This document shows, in pieces, positions 2,528-22,293 of a stretch of 26,016 bases of DNA; the first letter of the stretch is position 1, and every line of letters begins with the position of its first letter. The position numbers and the translations under genes are program-made. The notes beneath the pieces were generated by a model that worked only from the letters and a program-made list of their open reading frames with translations, was not told the DNA's origin and did not search any database. The stretch is from a virus: the IMG/VR virus record IMGVR_UViG_3300046512_000116, positions 1 through 26,016 of that record; one strand, given 5' to 3'.

Positions 2528-3403
2528 TTATTCTAGGCCGTCTGCTGTGAGCTGGTCTTGCCCCCGTGTCCGGCTTTTTGCAGATCGGTGGGCTGCGCAA
2601 AACGGCGAGTTTTCACGCCCTGGGGAATTGCACCCTGGGCAGGCGCAAGGCTTGCCACCACCCTCTATTGGCTTGAGTGCAGCGCAAATATCCGCCTCAA
2701 GGGATTCAAGCTGTTCAGGGGCGCCGCTCTCAAAGCTCAGTACGGACGCGTGAACTACTCGTCGCAACAACCCATCCAGCAGCCCCACCCGCAAGCGCAG
2801 GTCATGTTCCCGCTCACCAGCCCGGACGTACGCGGTAGAGAGCGCATCGTTTTTCTCGTCCGCAGCTGTAAGGCTCAGTTGCAGCGCGTCACGCTCGGCG
2901 GTTACCCGGTCGAAGTTGGTCTGCATCTGCTCTGCACCGACCGCATACAGAATTTCATGCCCCAGCTCTTTGGCTATCGAAACTTCCAGACGCGCACCGC
3001 GTGAAGATGACCAGCCAGGCAACAGCATCATGGCCGAGCAAGTGGAAAGCCGGCTAATGTCGTAGCGCAGGTAGTCACCCCAATCGGCGCCGTCGACGTG
3101 CCCGTGTTCAGCCGGGTTTTCAACGTGCCAGCCATCGGCCCGCAGCACCTCGGCCATGGCGTTGAACGCTGGGAAGTTGAATTCAGGTAGTCCGGTCATT
3201 GGCCCAGCGATGTACACGCGCATCACGCGGTCGGCCTGGAGGATTACCCGGCGCTCTGTCGCCAAGTCCTGTTCCGGTGGCGAAAGTGATACGCCCGCCG
3301 GTGTTGGTGCTGGTGTGCAGAACTCACAGTCGAGAAAGCCAACTGTAGGATCAATGCCCGTGCCCTTGCAGGAATGGCAGGGCGTTTTAGGTGGTGTGCT
3401 CAT
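2528..3403 (-). CDS. DUF4406-domain protein with zinc-finger-like ends
   Basis: A 291-residue protein. Residues 9-29 carry two C-x2-C pairs (CHSC and CEFC), like half of a DnaJ zinc finger. Residues about 61-155 match the DUF4406 fold, beginning MRVYIAGPMTG. This fold is related to nucleoside 2-deoxyribosyltransferases, which act on nucleosides or nucleotides. A probable coiled coil follows (about 165-230). The C-terminus has a further cysteine-histidine cluster (CACPGCNS...FCAAH). The start at 3403 follows GGGAGA and overlaps the previous stop as ATGA; a longer frame upstream lies inside the methyltransferase gene and is not credible. Substrate unknown; a role in nucleotide or DNA-modification chemistry is inferred from the neighbours. 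Confidence 0.8.
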   Translation of the reverse strand: MSTPPKTPCHSCKGTGIDPTVGFLDCEFCTPAPTPAGVSLSPPEQDLATERRVILQADRVMRVYIAGPMTGLPEFNFPAFNAMAEVLRADGWHVENPAEHGHVDGADWGDYLRYDISRLSTCSAMMLLPGWSSSRGARLEVSIAKELGHEILYAVGAEQMQTNFDRVTAERDALQLSLTAADEKNDALSTAYVRAGEREHDLRLRVGLLDGLLRRVVHASVLSFESGAPEQLESLEADICAALKPIEGGGKPCACPGCNSPGRENSPFCAAHRSAKSRTRGQDQLTADGLE

Positions 3404-3549
3404 GATTGATTCTCCCGCTGCTTGGCGTGCTCTTGCTGGCGCGCCCGGCTGCATTTGTCGTGGTTCCCGCTGTTGCGGGGCCTGTTGCACTTGTCGCACT
3501 TGGCCAGGAACTCCAGCACCCCGGCGGTGAGCTTGCCGGTGCTGGTCAT
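3400..3549 (-). CDS. Small cysteine-rich protein (49 aa)
   Basis: A short frame between the methyltransferase and the DUF4406 gene, starting MTSTGKLTAGVLEF and carrying CDKCNRPRNSGNHDKC, a C-x2-C plus a distal cysteine that could bind zinc. Start and stop overlap both neighbours as ATGA, which supports it being translated as part of the chain. The rest is basic and rich in glutamine. Function unknown. Confidence 0.7.
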   Translation of the reverse strand: MTSTGKLTAGVLEFLAKCDKCNRPRNSGNHDKCSRARQQEHAKQRENQS

Positions 3550-4811
3550 AGCGCCAACTGCCGTGGCTGTTCCTGTTCATGCTCGATGCGCGCTCGGGCG
3601 ATTGCCGCGTACTGCACGTCGATCTCGCACCCGATGAACTGGAACCCTTCGCGTACGGCAGCCTTGCCAGTGCTTCCGCTGCCCATGAAAGGGTCCAGCA
3701 CCACGCCACCGGCCGGAGTGACAAGGCGGCACAGGTAGGCCATCAGGTCGGTTGGTTTGACGGTGGGGTGGTTGTTTCCTTTCGTGTCCGTGGTCTGGAC
3801 TTTGCGCAGGGTGGTGCCCATCTTGAATTGGGGCCCGGGGTTGCTCAGTCCTTCATGCCTGTCGGTGCGGCTGGTCTTGGCGCAGTAGAAGAAGCGGGCA
3901 GCGCTGCCACTGTCGCAGTGAAAGGCACCGGCTACCCGCTCACGCATGCCGCTGTAGCTCACCGCTCCACTGAAGCCATTGGCCGTTGGTTCAGTGCCCA
4001 TGACCGGCGCACTTGCTCCAGCCTGGGCAGGAAACAAGGCGACCACTTCGTCGCTGCCATCGTGGATTAGGTTCGCAGGCCAGCGGCCGAGCGCCGAGGC
4101 TTCGGCGGTCATCGGGATAGACCCCGACCTTCCACCGACGAACCGCCCGCCGCGCATATCGACGGTGGTGTCCCGGTCCCAGTTCTTTGCCAGTGCTTCG
4201 GCATCCGCCGCCGATACCCGGCAGCCATCGATGTTCAGCCCGCCAGTTCCCCACCTGGCCATGTTGGTCGCTACGGTCCCGCTGAACGGCTTACGCGCCA
4301 CACAGATCGGTTCATGCGCAGGTTTCAGCGCGGTGCCCCATCCTTGGTGTGCGCCCTTGAGGTTGTGCGACTTGGGGAAGCCGCTCCCGAACACCCACAT
4401 AATCTGGTCGCGGATCTCAAACCCGGCCATCTCAATGCCCACCGCCATGTGGTGGTAAGTGCGAGCTGCAGCAAATGAAAGCAGGTGACCGCCGGGCTTG
4501 AGAACGCGTAGGCACTCGGTGGCCCACTCAAGCGTGAACGACTGAAATGCCTTCATACCACCAGGTGTTAAGTCGTACTTTCCAGCTTCCGAGGCTGTCG
4601 ATCGATGCCCTCCAGTGGCCCCGCAAGCAGGATCAGCCGACGGCATGCTGTCGCGGTAGGCCGCACGGGATTCAATGTCCTGGCCATCCCAGCTTTTGCC
4701 CATGAAGCGAATGCCGTAGGGCGGATCGGTCACGACGCTATCGACTGAGTTGTCGGGCATATGCTGCATAAGCTCGATGCAGTCTCCGATAAGGATGGTG
4801 TGTTGGCTCAT
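3546..4811 (-). CDS. DNA methyltransferase (N6-adenine/N4-cytosine, beta class)
   Basis: A 421-residue amino-methyltransferase. The catalytic motif TDPPYG is near the N-terminus (DPPY at 29-32) and the SAM-binding DPFMGSGSTGKAA is near the C-terminus. That order (motif IV before motif I) is the beta class. The long middle, with several GG-rich stretches, is the likely target-recognition part. It would methylate phage or host DNA, probably to protect phage DNA from restriction; no cognate restriction enzyme is seen. The start at 4811 (MSQHTILIGDC) overlaps the upstream stop as ATGA. The frame stays open another 43 codons upstream, but inside the ASCH gene. Confidence 0.92.
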   Translation of the reverse strand: MSQHTILIGDCIELMQHMPDNSVDSVVTDPPYGIRFMGKSWDGQDIESRAAYRDSMPSADPACGATGGHRSTASEAGKYDLTPGGMKAFQSFTLEWATECLRVLKPGGHLLSFAAARTYHHMAVGIEMAGFEIRDQIMWVFGSGFPKSHNLKGAHQGWGTALKPAHEPICVARKPFSGTVATNMARWGTGGLNIDGCRVSAADAEALAKNWDRDTTVDMRGGRFVGGRSGSIPMTAEASALGRWPANLIHDGSDEVVALFPAQAGASAPVMGTEPTANGFSGAVSYSGMRERVAGAFHCDSGSAARFFYCAKTSRTDRHEGLSNPGPQFKMGTTLRKVQTTDTKGNNHPTVKPTDLMAYLCRLVTPAGGVVLDPFMGSGSTGKAAVREGFQFIGCEIDVQYAAIARARIEHEQEQPRQLAL

Positions 4812-5395
4812 GGCATCACCCGCTTGAACTCGACCACCCAGACCCACGGGTTTGCCTCCCATGCACCGGCGCCGTTGATGCTGTTCCACAGGTGATAGAA
4901 CGAATCGACCGCGCTGGGTGCTGGGCAGTCGCACCCGCACGGCTCGTTGTTTCCGCAGTTGGTGCAGCCACCGTCGGTGATGCCTTCGGCCCTGGCCTGT
5001 TCTTCGGTGATGTCCTGCAACCGCTCGACGCGTACGGCGGTGATCTCCAGCAGGATGCGGCTGTCACGGCGGAACATATGGATGCTGGGTTTCCAGCGGA
5101 TTTCATTGGCGGCCGGGATGTTTTCCAGTTCAGGCGGCAGGCAGCCGGGATAGGTTGCGGCGAATGTCAGATAGCCGGGATCGCAATTGCCGACACGCGC
5201 CCAGGTCTCACGCACCCAAAGCCGGTCGCCGGGCTTGCCGTAGGGGCAGTTGGCTGGAATCGGCACCAGCTCGCCAGTGGCAGAGGTCTCCCAAAAGCCG
5301 TGCGGCATCTTGAGCAACCGACGCGTGACTGTCTTCTGGCCTGACAGGATGGCCCGTACCAGCGGACCTTTAAATAGAATCGGCCGCTCTTTCAT
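4808..5395 (-). CDS. ASCH-domain phage protein
   Basis: A 195-residue protein. It begins with PILFKGPLVRAILSGQKTVTRR, containing the G-x-K-x-x-T-x-R signature of ASCH domains, and ends with the FYHLWNSINGAGAWEANPWVW block seen in many phage proteins that annotators have called morphogenetic. ASCH domains bind RNA or act on modified nucleosides; the real role in phages is not settled. A cysteine cluster (about 145-155: CTNCGNNEPCGCDC) may bind metal. It sits between a methyltransferase and an unknown gene with ATGA overlaps on both sides, which fits a role in nucleic-acid processing rather than head building. Confidence 0.85.
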   Translation of the reverse strand: MKERPILFKGPLVRAILSGQKTVTRRLLKMPHGFWETSATGELVPIPANCPYGKPGDRLWVRETWARVGNCDPGYLTFAATYPGCLPPELENIPAANEIRWKPSIHMFRRDSRILLEITAVRVERLQDITEEQARAEGITDGGCTNCGNNEPCGCDCPAPSAVDSFYHLWNSINGAGAWEANPWVWVVEFKRVMP

Positions 5396-6604: not shown

Positions 6605-6627
6605 GCCCAGCCTCTAGGCTGGGCTTT
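6605..6627. terminator. Two-way terminator
   Basis: GCCCAGCC (6605-6612) and GGCTGGGC (6617-6624) form a perfect 8-bp stem with loop TCTA, followed by TTT on the plus strand. It lies between two converging genes. The stop codon of the leftward methyltransferase (6614-6616) falls in the loop. Termination is more convincing rightwards, where T follows; leftwards the tail is only weakly T-rich. Confidence 0.7.
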
Positions 6628-8290
6628 GTGTCGAGACACTTAGCGCCACCGCCACGGGCTGAACCCAGATCGGCATGCTATTCAGCATGAAGGTTTCGCC
6701 GGCCTCGGCCAGCAACAGGGTGGTGCCCATCACGTGGGCGATTGCCTCGGCTGCAGCTGGTGGAACTGCGTTCCCGATTCGCTCGCGCCATGCCTGGTCG
6801 CTCAGGCCGTCCAGCTCAAACCATTCCTCTGGCTCAACCAGGCTTTGCAGCGCGGCCAGCTCCAGCGTTGTGAACGGTCGGTGCCAAGTGCCGTCGAGGC
6901 TTTCGATAACGCAGGTCAATCGCTCGTTGGCTTCCGGCATCCGGGGATCTGCAACAGACCACCGGCCGTTGTCCTGGCGGGCGCTGGCTGAAACTGCGCC
7001 GCACTGGTCGTTCCAACTGGTGACGCCGTAGTGCCCACCGGTCAAGTAGGCATCGCCCTTGCCGCGCTTCATGCCTGGTCGTGGATCCTGGACAGCGAAA
7101 GCACCCTGGCCCGTGGTGCTGCCGGAAATGACCGTGCGCGATATGCCATCCCACTGGGCCACGTTGTACTTGGCGTGGCCGATGCCGGGGTCGCGGGGAT
7201 CTGCAACGCTGAACGTCCCTTGCCCGGGCGACTTCACTCCGATCACCGCACCGCTCGTTTCGTCCCATCGGCGAACACCGTACTGCTGGTATTGCAGTGC
7301 GCCAGCTCGGGCCCGTGGATCAGCCACCGAGAACTTGCCGTTGGTTGGCCCGCTTCGCGCGGCGACGGTGCCGGCAGTTTCGTTCCAGTCGTGCACGCCC
7401 AGGAACCCGTCCCGGAACTGCGGAACAATGACCAGGTCACGAAGGTAGCCGTCCTCGATCACCAGATCATTCAGGCAGCGCCAGTCCTTACCGGCTTCGA
7501 CCAGGGCCAGACGCACCCATGTTTTCCATTGCAGCGCCGGAACCCGGTGCATAGGGCCCGCAGCTTCTACGTCGCCGGCCATGGGCATGCGGCCCAGGAT
7601 CGAGCCGACCGACTTGAGGTTTTTCTTTTCTGGCTCGTACAGGAAGGGCGGTACCTTCTCGATGTGCCTGGCCACCAGCAAGAAGCGCTTGCGGCTCTGG
7701 GCCAGACCGCCGATGACGCCACAGTCGTGAGTTGTTTCCGCAACTGCATAACCGTAGTGGTTCAACAGCTTGTTGATTTGGTCCAGCAGATGCCGGCCAC
7801 GGGTGGCCAGGCGTGGCACGTTCTCGAAAACGATCAACGATACCGGGTCATCCTTCCAGGCTTCGCACATCAGCCACACGCAGCGCAGCGTCAGTTCGTT
7901 GAGGGCCTGGTACTTCGGGGTCAGGCTCATGGTCTCGGACAGCAAGCCCGAGGCGCCTTTACATGGGCTGCTGATGAACACGGCGTCGGGGCGTTCGTAG
8001 CCGGCGGCGCGGCGCACGTCGTCTGGGCCAGCCTCAACCCAACCTGGCGGTGGCTGCTTACCGTGAAACGCGATGTACATGCCGAGGGTGAACAGGTCCA
8101 TCAGGGTGCCAGGTACGCCGGACAGGCGCTGGAAGTCGCGCAACCCGGCCGGGTCAACATCGATGCCGCCGATGCATTGCCACTCGGCCTGCATGTTGCC
8201 CACCACGGGCTTGGCTTTGTTGAACCCTTTGGCGCCGCCGCCGAGGCCGCAGCAAAAATGGAAGTGCTTGAAAATTCGCTTGAGCATCAT
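6614..8290 (-). CDS. C5-cytosine DNA methyltransferase with four-fold internal repeat
   Basis: A 558-residue Dcm-type enzyme that methylates cytosine at C5. Motif I is FHFCCGLGGGAKGF (about 10-23), the catalytic Pro-Cys is in SSPCKGAS (C110), ENV is at 156-158, Q-x-R-x-R at 198-202, and IGNAVPP at about 505. Family members are usually shorter. The extra length is a repeated module in the target-recognition region, residues about 297-450: four copies of a block that starts with an aromatic-G/N-V-x-x-W-(D/N) pattern and ends in (S/A)V-x-DPR. ATG 8290 has AAGGAA at good spacing. It is the last gene of the leftward early operon. No restriction partner is seen. Confidence 0.93.
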   Translation of the reverse strand: MMLKRIFKHFHFCCGLGGGAKGFNKAKPVVGNMQAEWQCIGGIDVDPAGLRDFQRLSGVPGTLMDLFTLGMYIAFHGKQPPPGWVEAGPDDVRRAAGYERPDAVFISSPCKGASGLLSETMSLTPKYQALNELTLRCVWLMCEAWKDDPVSLIVFENVPRLATRGRHLLDQINKLLNHYGYAVAETTHDCGVIGGLAQSRKRFLLVARHIEKVPPFLYEPEKKNLKSVGSILGRMPMAGDVEAAGPMHRVPALQWKTWVRLALVEAGKDWRCLNDLVIEDGYLRDLVIVPQFRDGFLGVHDWNETAGTVAARSGPTNGKFSVADPRARAGALQYQQYGVRRWDETSGAVIGVKSPGQGTFSVADPRDPGIGHAKYNVAQWDGISRTVISGSTTGQGAFAVQDPRPGMKRGKGDAYLTGGHYGVTSWNDQCGAVSASARQDNGRWSVADPRMPEANERLTCVIESLDGTWHRPFTTLELAALQSLVEPEEWFELDGLSDQAWRERIGNAVPPAAAEAIAHVMGTTLLLAEAGETFMLNSMPIWVQPVAVALSVSTQSPA

Positions 8291-20033: not shown

Positions 20034-20315
20034 ATGGCAGCCCCAGGCAGGAGCAGAAACAACATGGCCAACCCTGCGCCAGAGAGCATCGTTGAGGCGG
20101 TAGGCATATCGGTTGCCAACAAGGGACTGATCGCCGGCGGCGCCACTGGCCTGTTTGGCTGGTTGTCCCAAGTGAACTGGATTGGTTTTGCTGGTGTGGC
20201 GGTTGCGGTGCTGGGTTTGCTCATCAGCACTTACTTCCAGATCCGCAAGGACCGTCGCGAAGCCGCCGAGAGCGCCGCGCGATTGGAAGCCCTGAAAGAG
20301 CGCGCGCGAGCATGA
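20034..20315 (+). CDS. Holin with two possible starts
   Basis: A 93-residue membrane protein. Two hydrophobic stretches (GLIAGGATGLFGWL and WIGFAGVAVAVLGLLIS) are followed by a charged tail, as in two-span holins that open the inner membrane for the endolysin. ATG 20034 has GGAGG at seven bases. A second in-frame ATG at 20064 has AGGAG ten bases upstream and would drop ten residues that include two arginines. Dual starts of this kind set holin/antiholin ratio in lambda. The stop overlaps the endolysin start as ATGA. Confidence 0.88.
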   Translation: MAAPGRSRNNMANPAPESIVEAVGISVANKGLIAGGATGLFGWLSQVNWIGFAGVAVAVLGLLISTYFQIRKDRREAAESAARLEALKERARA

Positions 20316-20827
20316 ACCAGGTCATTCGCCAGCGAATCGCTGTTGCCCTGCTGGGCATGAGTGCTGCTGGCTTCGCGACCTGGCAGGCGAGCGAGGGTTA
20401 CACGCCTGTCGCCGTCATCCCAACGAAGGGCGACGTTCCCACCATCGGCCACGGCTCCACCCGGTACGAAGACGGCTCGCCAGTCCGTATGGGCGACACC
20501 ATCATCCCGGCCCGCGCCGAAGTCCTGGCCCGCAACCTGAACAGCCAGGCAGAGAAGCAATTCGCCGCGTCACTCCCTGGTGTCACGCTGCATCAAACTG
20601 AATTCGATCTGTACATGGACTTCATTGGCCAGTACGGCATTGGCACCTGGCTCAAGGGTTCCCCGCGCCGCAACCTGCTGGCCGGCAACTACGCCAAGGC
20701 CTGCCATGACCTGCTCAAGTTCCGCTATGCCGCTGGCTTCGACTGCTCCACGCCGGGCAATAAGCGCTGCGCCGGTGTCTGGACTCGCCAGCTTGAGCGA
20801 CACGCCAAGTGCATGGCGGCGCAGTAA
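20312..20827 (+). CDS. Endolysin (GH24 lysozyme) with signal-anchor N-terminus
   Basis: A 171-residue muramidase. The N-terminus QRIAVALLGMSAAGFATWQA is a weakly hydrophobic segment without a clear cleavage site, typical of SAR endolysins that sit in the membrane until released. The catalytic region follows at once: E28 in SEGYTPV, then GDVPTIGHGST. The C-terminal half has LHQTEFDLYMDFIGQYGIG and R/C-rich blocks common to the family. It degrades peptidoglycan at lysis. It lies immediately after the holin with an ATGA overlap. Confidence 0.93.
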   Translation: MNQVIRQRIAVALLGMSAAGFATWQASEGYTPVAVIPTKGDVPTIGHGSTRYEDGSPVRMGDTIIPARAEVLARNLNSQAEKQFAASLPGVTLHQTEFDLYMDFIGQYGIGTWLKGSPRRNLLAGNYAKACHDLLKFRYAAGFDCSTPGNKRCAGVWTRQLERHAKCMAAQ

Positions 20828-20831
20828 TCCC

Positions 20832-21062
20832 ATGGCAGGCCGCAAACAGCCCTACACGCCGTGCAAGCTGTACGTCGATGGCGCCGAAGGCATTCAGGTC
20901 GGCGACTACATCACCACCGCTGCCGGGTCTGCCTACTTGGTCCAGACGCTCCGGGTGAGCCGTACCAAGCCCGAGCGCAAGCACATGGATTGTTTGCGTT
21001 GGCCTATGGCCCAGATCCCCGATGACGCGAGGTGCTACCAGCTGACCTGGTATGCACGATGA
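20832..21062 (+). CDS. Small phage protein, unknown (76 aa)
   Basis: Starts MAGRKQPYTPCKLYVDGAEG and contains IQVGDYITTAAGSAYLVQTL, which reads like a small beta-barrel, then KHMDCLRWPMAQIP. Not recognised. It lies within the lysis cassette, four bases after the endolysin, without a strong ribosome site. A role in lysis is not shown. Confidence 0.7.
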   Translation: MAGRKQPYTPCKLYVDGAEGIQVGDYITTAAGSAYLVQTLRVSRTKPERKHMDCLRWPMAQIPDDARCYQLTWYAR

Positions 21063-21088
21063 ATCACCAAACCCGAGAGGCTGCACTG

Positions 21089-21274
21089 ATGTCCCCAATC
21101 ATGAAGTACTTCGAATACGCCCATTTGCCAACGCACCTGCAAGAAGTGAGCAAACCAATCGGTGACCTCGCTCACCAGATGAATGATCAACTGCCAGATG
21201 GTCCGGAGAAGTCTGCCGGCCTGCGCAAGCTGCTTGAAGCCAAGGATTGCTTGGTTCGCGCCAAGCTGGCCTGA
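21089..21274 (+). CDS. Acb2/Tad1-like small helical protein (candidate anti-defence sponge)
   Basis: A 61-residue helical hairpin protein starting MSPIMKYFEYAHLPTHLQ. Its layout is an aromatic-tyrosine-hydrophobic-proline start, a helix with VSKPIGDLAHQM, then LPDGPEKSAGLRKLLEAKDC and VRAKL. From memory this follows the pattern of Acb2/Tad1-type proteins, which bind the cyclic nucleotides used by CBASS or Thoeris defence. The resemblance is by eye and some positions differ. ATG 21089 is chosen for GAGAGG eight bases upstream; ATG 21059 would add ten residues. It lies between the endolysin region and Rz. Confidence 0.6.
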   Translation: MSPIMKYFEYAHLPTHLQEVSKPIGDLAHQMNDQLPDGPEKSAGLRKLLEAKDCLVRAKLA

Positions 21275-21285
21275 GGAATCCCGCC

Positions 21286-21753
21286 ATGATCCGCTACCTC
21301 ATTGCCGCACTCGCTGCATGCCTGGTGCTGATCTACGGCGGTTGGAGCCACATCCAGGGACAGGCCAAGGACATGGCCGTTGCGAAGGATCGCATTGACA
21401 CCCTTGAGCGCGCGGCCGAGTCACGGCGCAACACCCAGCGCCTGCTGGCCCAGCTCGACACCGAACACACGAAGGCCCTGACCGATGCGCAGACCACTAA
21501 CAATCAGCTTCTTGCTGCTGTCGCTACTGGCGCTCGCCGGCTGTCCGTCAAGGCCACCTGTCCCGCTGTGCGAAACACCGCCGCCACCGCCGGCCTGGGT
21601 GATGCAGAAGCGCGAGCCGAACTTGACCCAGCGGCTGGTCAACGAATTGTCGCCATCGCCAACGACGGTGACGAAGGACTGATAGCCCTGCGCGCGGCAC
21701 AGGACTACATCAACACCGTCTGCCTGGGCGGTACCAATCAAAAGGGGCAGTGA
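21286..21753 (+). CDS. Rz: Rz inner-membrane spanin
   Basis: A 155-residue protein with an N-terminal membrane anchor (YLIAALAACLVLIYGGW), then a periplasmic coiled-coil region (DRIDTLERAAESRRNTQRLL). Rz spans the periplasm with Rz1 and fuses inner and outer membranes at the last step of lysis. ATG 21286 has GAGGA upstream. Rz1 is encoded inside it in another frame. Confidence 0.9.
   Translation: MIRYLIAALAACLVLIYGGWSHIQGQAKDMAVAKDRIDTLERAAESRRNTQRLLAQLDTEHTKALTDAQTTNNQLLAAVATGARRLSVKATCPAVRNTAATAGLGDAEARAELDPAAGQRIVAIANDGDEGLIALRAAQDYINTVCLGGTNQKGQ
21485..21682 (+). CDS. Rz1: Rz1 outer-membrane lipoprotein spanin, nested in Rz
   Basis: A 65-residue lipoprotein lying wholly within the Rz gene in the +1 frame. 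It has a short basic start (MRRPLT), a hydrophobic run and a lipobox LALAGC with Cys20 as the lipidated residue. A proline-rich segment follows (PSRPPVPLCETPPPPPA), as in lambda Rz1. Partner of Rz. Confidence 0.92.
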   Translation: MRRPLTISFLLLSLLALAGCPSRPPVPLCETPPPPPAWVMQKREPNLTQRLVNELSPSPTTVTKD

Positions 21754-21756
21754 CCT

Positions 21757-22293
21757 ATGGCCGCTCTAACCCCGAAGCAACAGGCGTTTGTTCTGGAGTT
21801 CCTGGTTGACCTGAACGCCAGCCAAGCGGCAATCAGGGCCGGGTATGCGCGCAAGGGCGTGAACGCCGCGTCGTACTCCCTCATGCAGCGCCCGCACATC
21901 GCAGCCGCGATCAAGGCAGCCATGGAGGCCCGCAGCCAGCGAACCAAGGTCGATGCCGATTACGTGCTGAACCGGCTGACCGAGATCGACCAGATGGATT
22001 TGCTGGACATTCTCAACGACGACATGTCGTTCAAGGCGCTCTCTAAGTGGCCCAAGGTCTGGCGCCAGTCGCTGTCGGCGTTCGATATCGCCGAGATGTT
22101 CGAAGGCGTCGGCAAGGACCGCGACATGGTCGGCCTGATGAAAAAGATCAAGTGGCCGGACAAGGTCAGGAACCTTGAGCTGCTCGGCAAGCACGTCAAC
22201 GTCAATGCCTTCCGGGACCAGGTGGCGGTCGATGTAACCCTCACCCTTTCCGAACGGATGGCCAAAGCCCGTGAACGCGCCAGCAGAGGTTGA
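21757..22293 (+). CDS. terS: Terminase small subunit
   Basis: A 178-residue protein of the Terminase_2 type. The N-terminal helix-turn-helix region reads LTPKQQAFVLEFLVDLNASQ then AAIRAGYARKGVNAASYSLMQ, a hallmark of small terminases. The rest is helical and would form the ring that recognises phage DNA at the pac or cos site. The end overlaps the large subunit by 23 bases. Confidence 0.93.
   Translation: MAALTPKQQAFVLEFLVDLNASQAAIRAGYARKGVNAASYSLMQRPHIAAAIKAAMEARSQRTKVDADYVLNRLTEIDQMDLLDILNDDMSFKALSKWPKVWRQSLSAFDIAEMFEGVGKDRDMVGLMKKIKWPDKVRNLELLGKHVNVNAFRDQVAVDVTLTLSERMAKARERASRG

Follow-up and report, generated by a model that had tools for sequence, protein, structure and literature searches.

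A widespread family of small phage proteins related to the Acb2/Tad1 helical-hairpin sponges

A small gene within the lysis cassette of a temperate-type phage encodes a 61-residue protein whose homology to the helical-hairpin proteins of Pfam family PF24729 (Acb2/Tad1 hairpin) is well supported by profile comparisons. The protein belongs to PHROG 1761/5120, which would constitute a separate, large and highly conserved branch of the Acb2/Tad1 helical-hairpin superfamily. We read this branch as a diverged sister lineage within the sponge superfamily whose members, at about an even chance, act as oligomeric sponges of changed specificity.

The window, meaning the whole 26-kb virus record analysed (26,016 nucleotides), has the gene content of a lambda-like temperate phage, with an integrase-like ORF, an S24-type repressor, RecT, YqaJ, a lysis cassette, terminase and a head-tail connector. 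In its packaging genes it shares 86% identity with Pseudomonas phage UFJF_PfDIW6. The early side carries two DNA methyltransferase genes (3546-4940 and 6614-8290, both on the minus strand), the types represented in the window being N6/N4 (PF01555) and C5-cytosine (PF00145), and a long ORF with a DUF4406 domain (PF14359, 2.7e-24) occupies 2528-3724 on the minus strand. The initial annotation placed the 61-residue gene inside the lysis cassette and gave it a ribosome site of its own, and both statements hold: the gene lies between the lysozyme and a 77-residue gene on one side and Rz/Rz1 on the other, in the following order.

20034-20315, plus strand: holin (PHROG 4237; match to Phage_holin_2_4 below cut-off)
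20312-20827, plus strand: phage lysozyme (endolysin; PF00959, 5e-12)
20832-21062, plus strand: 77-residue gene, function-unknown (PHROG 15907, 1.2e-47)
21075-21080, plus strand: GAGAGG, probable ribosome-binding site read from the sequence, 8 nt before the ATG at 21089
21089-21274, plus strand: 61-residue gene, divergent Acb2/Tad1-hairpin-like protein (PHROG 1761/5120, function-unknown)
21286-21753, plus strand: Rz inner-membrane spanin (PF03245, 2.3e-17)
21485-21682, plus strand: Rz1 outer-membrane spanin lipoprotein, encoded within Rz (PF06085, 2.2e-7)
21757-22293, plus strand: terminase small subunit, opening the packaging module

The 77-residue gene directly upstream (20832-21062) is another candidate accessory gene.

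Translation from the ATG at 21089 to the end of the stop codon at 21274 gives the product MSPIMKYFEYAHLPTHLQEVSKPIGDLAHQMNDQLPDGPEKSAGLRKLLEAKDCLVRAKLA. An alternative GTG at 21032 would extend the frame to 80 residues; the start is placed at 21089 because the conserved part of the relatives begins with M-x-P-I. Purine-rich, start-proximal sites like GAGAGG also precede the gene in all eight relatives checked. Length alone does not lift the frame above chance: ORFs that start with ATG and reach 61 residues or more number 101 in the window, compared with about 64 after shuffling. Judged by its conservation, which is decisive, the frame is a real gene, as first proposed. The window protein shares 75-97% identity with its relatives; against the nearest one, identity at codon positions 1, 2 and 3 is 0.98, 0.98 and 0.70, and dN/dS is 0.02-0.09 in the pairs with measurable dS, so that third codon positions diverge while the protein stays constant.

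Homology searches show that this family is large. A tblastn search with the 61-residue protein matched 388 phage records, 353 of them with at least 80% of the protein covered, and about 0.7% of annotated phage records carry the family. Among viral contigs, a first scan confirmed 293 relatives and a second, stricter pattern scan at least 591, while a genome collection yielded 196 from Pseudomonas, enterics, Streptomyces, cyanobacteria, Bacillales and Chloroflexi. The relatives include phages of Proteobacteria, Actinobacteria, Firmicutes and Cyanobacteria, and identity across phyla remains at 60-97%. In PHROGs the window protein matches function-unknown groups only (1761/5120); Pfam, NCBIfam and PADLOC gave no match for it, and a literature search by sequence and by these PHROG numbers found no paper in the collection searched. 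Several Acinetobacter phage relatives (hits H40, H42, H47 and H48) are annotated as 'occludin homology domain protein', a label that is probably a misannotation arising from a weak coiled-coil match (Occludin_ELL, 0.055).

The resemblance to Acb2/Tad1 proteins, originally read by eye, is borne out by profile methods as homology. PF24729 includes T4 Vs.4 (Acb2; PDB 7uq2). The solved p26 sequence served to gather an Acb2 comparison group. Another PF24729 group, here called the hairpin group, was reached through a query sequence that was only a lead, its loci then being verified with Pfam (L083, 5e-24; L159, 1e-16). Alignment of the 61-residue family with the hairpin group by hhalign scored 34.8 (probability 92.6%); none of 300 column shuffles exceeded 19.1, and no unrelated decoy family exceeded 16.8. 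The hairpin group itself scored only 27.5-29 against the true Acb2 group, and the direct comparison of the 61-residue family with true Acb2 gave 12.7, which is not significant; as far as profiles reveal it, the link between the family and Acb2 runs through the hairpin group.

Reciprocal HMM searches on a background of 17,353 ORFs agree. The hairpin-group HMM placed the JoyLin sponge, an annotated cyclic nucleotide sequestering protein, then Tad1 and then 188 family members, two Acb2-group ORFs standing among them, ahead of anything unrelated, which first appears at rank 193; Tad1 scored 23.2 bits and the best family member 22.8. In the reverse search with the family HMM, the first 35 outside matches all belonged to the hairpin group and preceded any unrelated ORF. 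Among these ORFs the two groups are mutually nearest, at roughly the distance of the validated Tad1. PF24729 is also the top Pfam match in four relatives, all below its curated cut-off of 27 bits: 16.4 for Brevibacterium phage AGM2 and 12.5-14.6 for the others. The AGM2 protein, gp27, matches PF24729 at 0.011 and PHROG 1454 at 3.9e-6, and the hairpin protein L083 matches PHROG 1454 at 1e-24 and the family's own PHROG 1761 at 0.0014. No family member exceeds the curated cut-off, and the window protein has no match at all. Searching a hairpin-family profile, as the initial annotation suggested, thus establishes profile-profile homology, while the curated cut-off and a direct Acb2 match are not reached. 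In PDB, a single-sequence search returned only chance similarity (best 3may, E 0.66), and a family-profile search returned Gp22 (8jaj; E 0.016, 41 of 529 residues).

Structurally, AlphaFold2 with 50 relatives produced a monomer model with a pLDDT of 96.5 and helices at residues 3-8, 15-34 and 39-60. The protomer is predicted with high confidence to share the architecture of Acb2, in which a short N-terminal helix precedes two long ones, in keeping with the helical hairpin first described. A Foldseek comparison with BFVD viral models returned what look like the family's own members at ranks 1-6; beyond these, most named matches are Acb2/Tad1 hairpin proteins, those at ranks 7 and 9 having a probability of 1.00 and a TM of 0.70-0.71 by query. 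A PDB fold search with the family model listed neither Acb2 nor Tad1 among 49 matches, whereas a control PF24729 hairpin model retrieved T4 Vs.4 at rank 1 (probability 0.99) and Tad1 at rank 3 (7uq2, 7uaw). Since the control retrieves these structures and the family model does not, the modelled fold is related to Acb2/Tad1 yet more distant than an accepted PF24729 member. The expected structural match was therefore found among the viral hairpin models and in the Acb2-like helix layout, and was missing in PDB, where the control was positive.

Comparative analysis clarifies which features are shared. The hairpin proteins of the 'FTYHPPK...TKLEEAVMWANAAIARN' type (PHROG 1454) are the reciprocal best profile relatives of the family; both have an F-x-Y motif, a P-[DN]-[SG] turn that connects their two long helices and an E-K-S opening of helix 2, and they align without gaps from the middle of helix 1 to the end. 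The family is shorter, its F-x-Y motif standing about four residues closer to helix 1, which agrees with the suggestion of a minimal or divergent member. It also replaces hairpin-protein R18, R36 and T43 with S21, P/A39 and R46, and ends its helix in KDCLVRAKL instead of VMWANAAIARN. Acb2 proteins (PaP2/PaMx33-type p26 and T4 Vs.4) resemble the family in their short N-terminal helix and two long helices, in the tyrosine (T4 Y8) and in an L-x-R-A of helix 2 that is in register with the family's LVRA; they differ in a much longer connection between helices 1 and 2, in the direct profile match and PDB fold search, neither of which links them to the family, and in the K26, R67 and T74 positions, whose equivalents the family has lost. 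Tad1 from Bacillus phage SBSphiJ7 shares the C-terminal helical hairpin and the similar hairpin-HMM score; unlike the family, it has an N-terminal beta-sheet domain and retains the R and T positions.

The pocket was compared at four positions in a joint alignment with 62 family sequences. The position of PaP2 Acb2 K26, a residue that we take to contribute to dinucleotide binding and that is K or R in Acb2 and the hairpin group, corresponds to S21, which is serine in 59 of the 62. That of PaP2 Acb2 R67, which counts as a pocket position by alignment and conservation only and whose arginine recurs in Tad1 and in the hairpin group, holds P or A, again in 59. The position of T4 Acb2 T68 and PaP2 Acb2 T74 corresponds to R46, arginine in all but one sequence (61/62). 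Only the tyrosine is kept: T4 Acb2 Y8 aligns with family Y10, which is Y in 51 sequences and F in 7, giving 58 of 62 with either. The Y8A change leaves T4 Acb2 binding-deficient, and T68M reduces its affinity (PMC12657230). The pocket is not decaying: the residues that stand in for K, R and T hardly vary, and helix 2 is conserved on nearly all its faces. One accepted PF24729 hairpin protein (L159:477-680) has an arginine at the T68-equivalent position, so the change from T68 to arginine exists inside the known family; this protein is a possible intermediate between the hairpin and 61-residue branches. Plain membership in Acb2/Tad1 is not supported, in view of the sub-threshold Pfam scores, the PDB fold search and the three replaced pocket positions.

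A mechanism consistent with these data would begin with the Acb2-like protomer, which would probably form oligomers in the manner of Acb2 and Tad1, through contacts that involve helix 2. The assembly would then probably sequester a nucleotide-type immune signal made during infection, so that a CBASS-, Thoeris- or Panoptes-like effector would be kept from acting. Because three of the four aligned pocket positions hold other conserved residues, the ligand probably lies outside the cyclic di- and trinucleotides that Acb2 usually binds. In its specific form, this reading makes PHROG 1761/5120 a very widespread, unrecognised class of phage sponge that binds a different, highly conserved nucleotide signal in a rebuilt pocket (Y10, S21, R46, K47, K52 and R57); we hold this version tentatively, somewhat short of an even chance. 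Signals set off by late phage products, capsids for instance, would fit expression from the late lysis operon, and capsid mutations that help phages escape CBASS have been reported (PMC10419184). Identity of 60-97% across phyla is unusual for an arms-race protein and counts against a sponge; the hairpin group is also well conserved, with a mean column identity of 73%.

This unusually high conservation supports the main rival, a repurposed homologous hairpin that kept the fold and oligomerisation, lost nucleotide binding and now binds a conserved host or phage protein. The near-invariant helix 2 and the cross-phylum identity are what a fixed macromolecular partner would lead one to expect, the replaced pocket positions are compatible with a new role, and some relatives are fused to other domains (C2H2-like zinc fingers, crAss001_48). 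Retention of Y or F at the binding tyrosine in nearly all sequences speaks for nucleotide binding instead, as does the fact that the functionally studied superfamily members covered, Acb2 and Tad1, are all nucleotide sponges (PMC12043709). Repurposing is possible, though on the doubtful side. An ordinary Acb2-type sponge, taking up 3'3'-cGAMP and cA3 through the same pockets, is unlikely: homology, fold and the conserved equivalent of T4 Acb2 Y8 favour it, but the position at which T68M lowers T4 Acb2 affinity (PMC12657230) is almost always arginine, and the K/R and R positions common to Acb2 and the hairpin group have become S and P/A.

The distribution of the gene across phage modules bears on the remaining alternative. 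Among the proteobacterial relatives, many have lysozyme-, holin- or Rz-like genes close by, in gene clusters named by eye, and the AGM2 relative follows a holin. Elsewhere the setting differs: in Gordonia phage Ruthy the gene sits between capsid and connector genes, in Dickeya phage JA33 it is close to baseplate genes, in a Dinoroseobacter phage it follows a DNA-repair exonuclease, and in Ruegeria phage RpAliso it adjoins a nucleotide pyrophosphohydrolase and a dNMP kinase. The 61-residue protein matched no holin, antiholin, spanin or endolysin family in Pfam or PHROGs. Its placement is that of a mobile accessory gene, not a lysis gene; a lysis-linked function was rejected since relatives occupy many modules, and the original view that no lysis role was to be expected is reasonable. 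That the protein is a short helical hairpin of other origin, such as a lysis-timing or other accessory protein resembling sponges by chance, is very improbable, for although the lysis-cassette sites and one relative whose best weak Pfam match is the coiled-coil model Occludin_ELL fit it, the profile scores far above shuffles and decoys, the specific reciprocal ranking and the relatives outside lysis cassettes do not. No operon link between the family and defence or counter-defence genes was found, and none of 48 family records carries a PF24729 protein over the cut-off, a count that carries no weight given the rare base rates.

The counter-defence sponges described so far fall into a few families. 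Among them Acb2 is described as relatively rare, and Acb4, with more than 1,300 members, is the largest known anti-CBASS family (PMC11722364). The 61-residue family, with its hundreds of viral-contig members and its relatives in genomes of many bacterial phyla, is functionally unnamed in every library searched. Should it prove to be a sponge, it would add a large class, and its fixed, different pocket would point to a signal that nobody has paired with a sponge; if not, it would be a clear case of sponge fold reuse.

Several relatives carry additional segments. One has a C-terminal crAss001_48 domain fusion (L409:2089-2490; PF21825, 2e-13), which was rejected as a functional clue because it is a single fusion. 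Weak crAss001_48-like ORFs occur near family genes at three further loci (L009, L348 and L381), and another adjoins an Acb2-type gene (L176; E 0.036). A protein of Cellulosimicrobium phage DS1 (L327:1587-2171) has an extra N-terminal C2H2-like segment that looks zinc-binding, and a further relative (L042:4001-4291) ends in a Cys-rich tail of similarly zinc-binding appearance.
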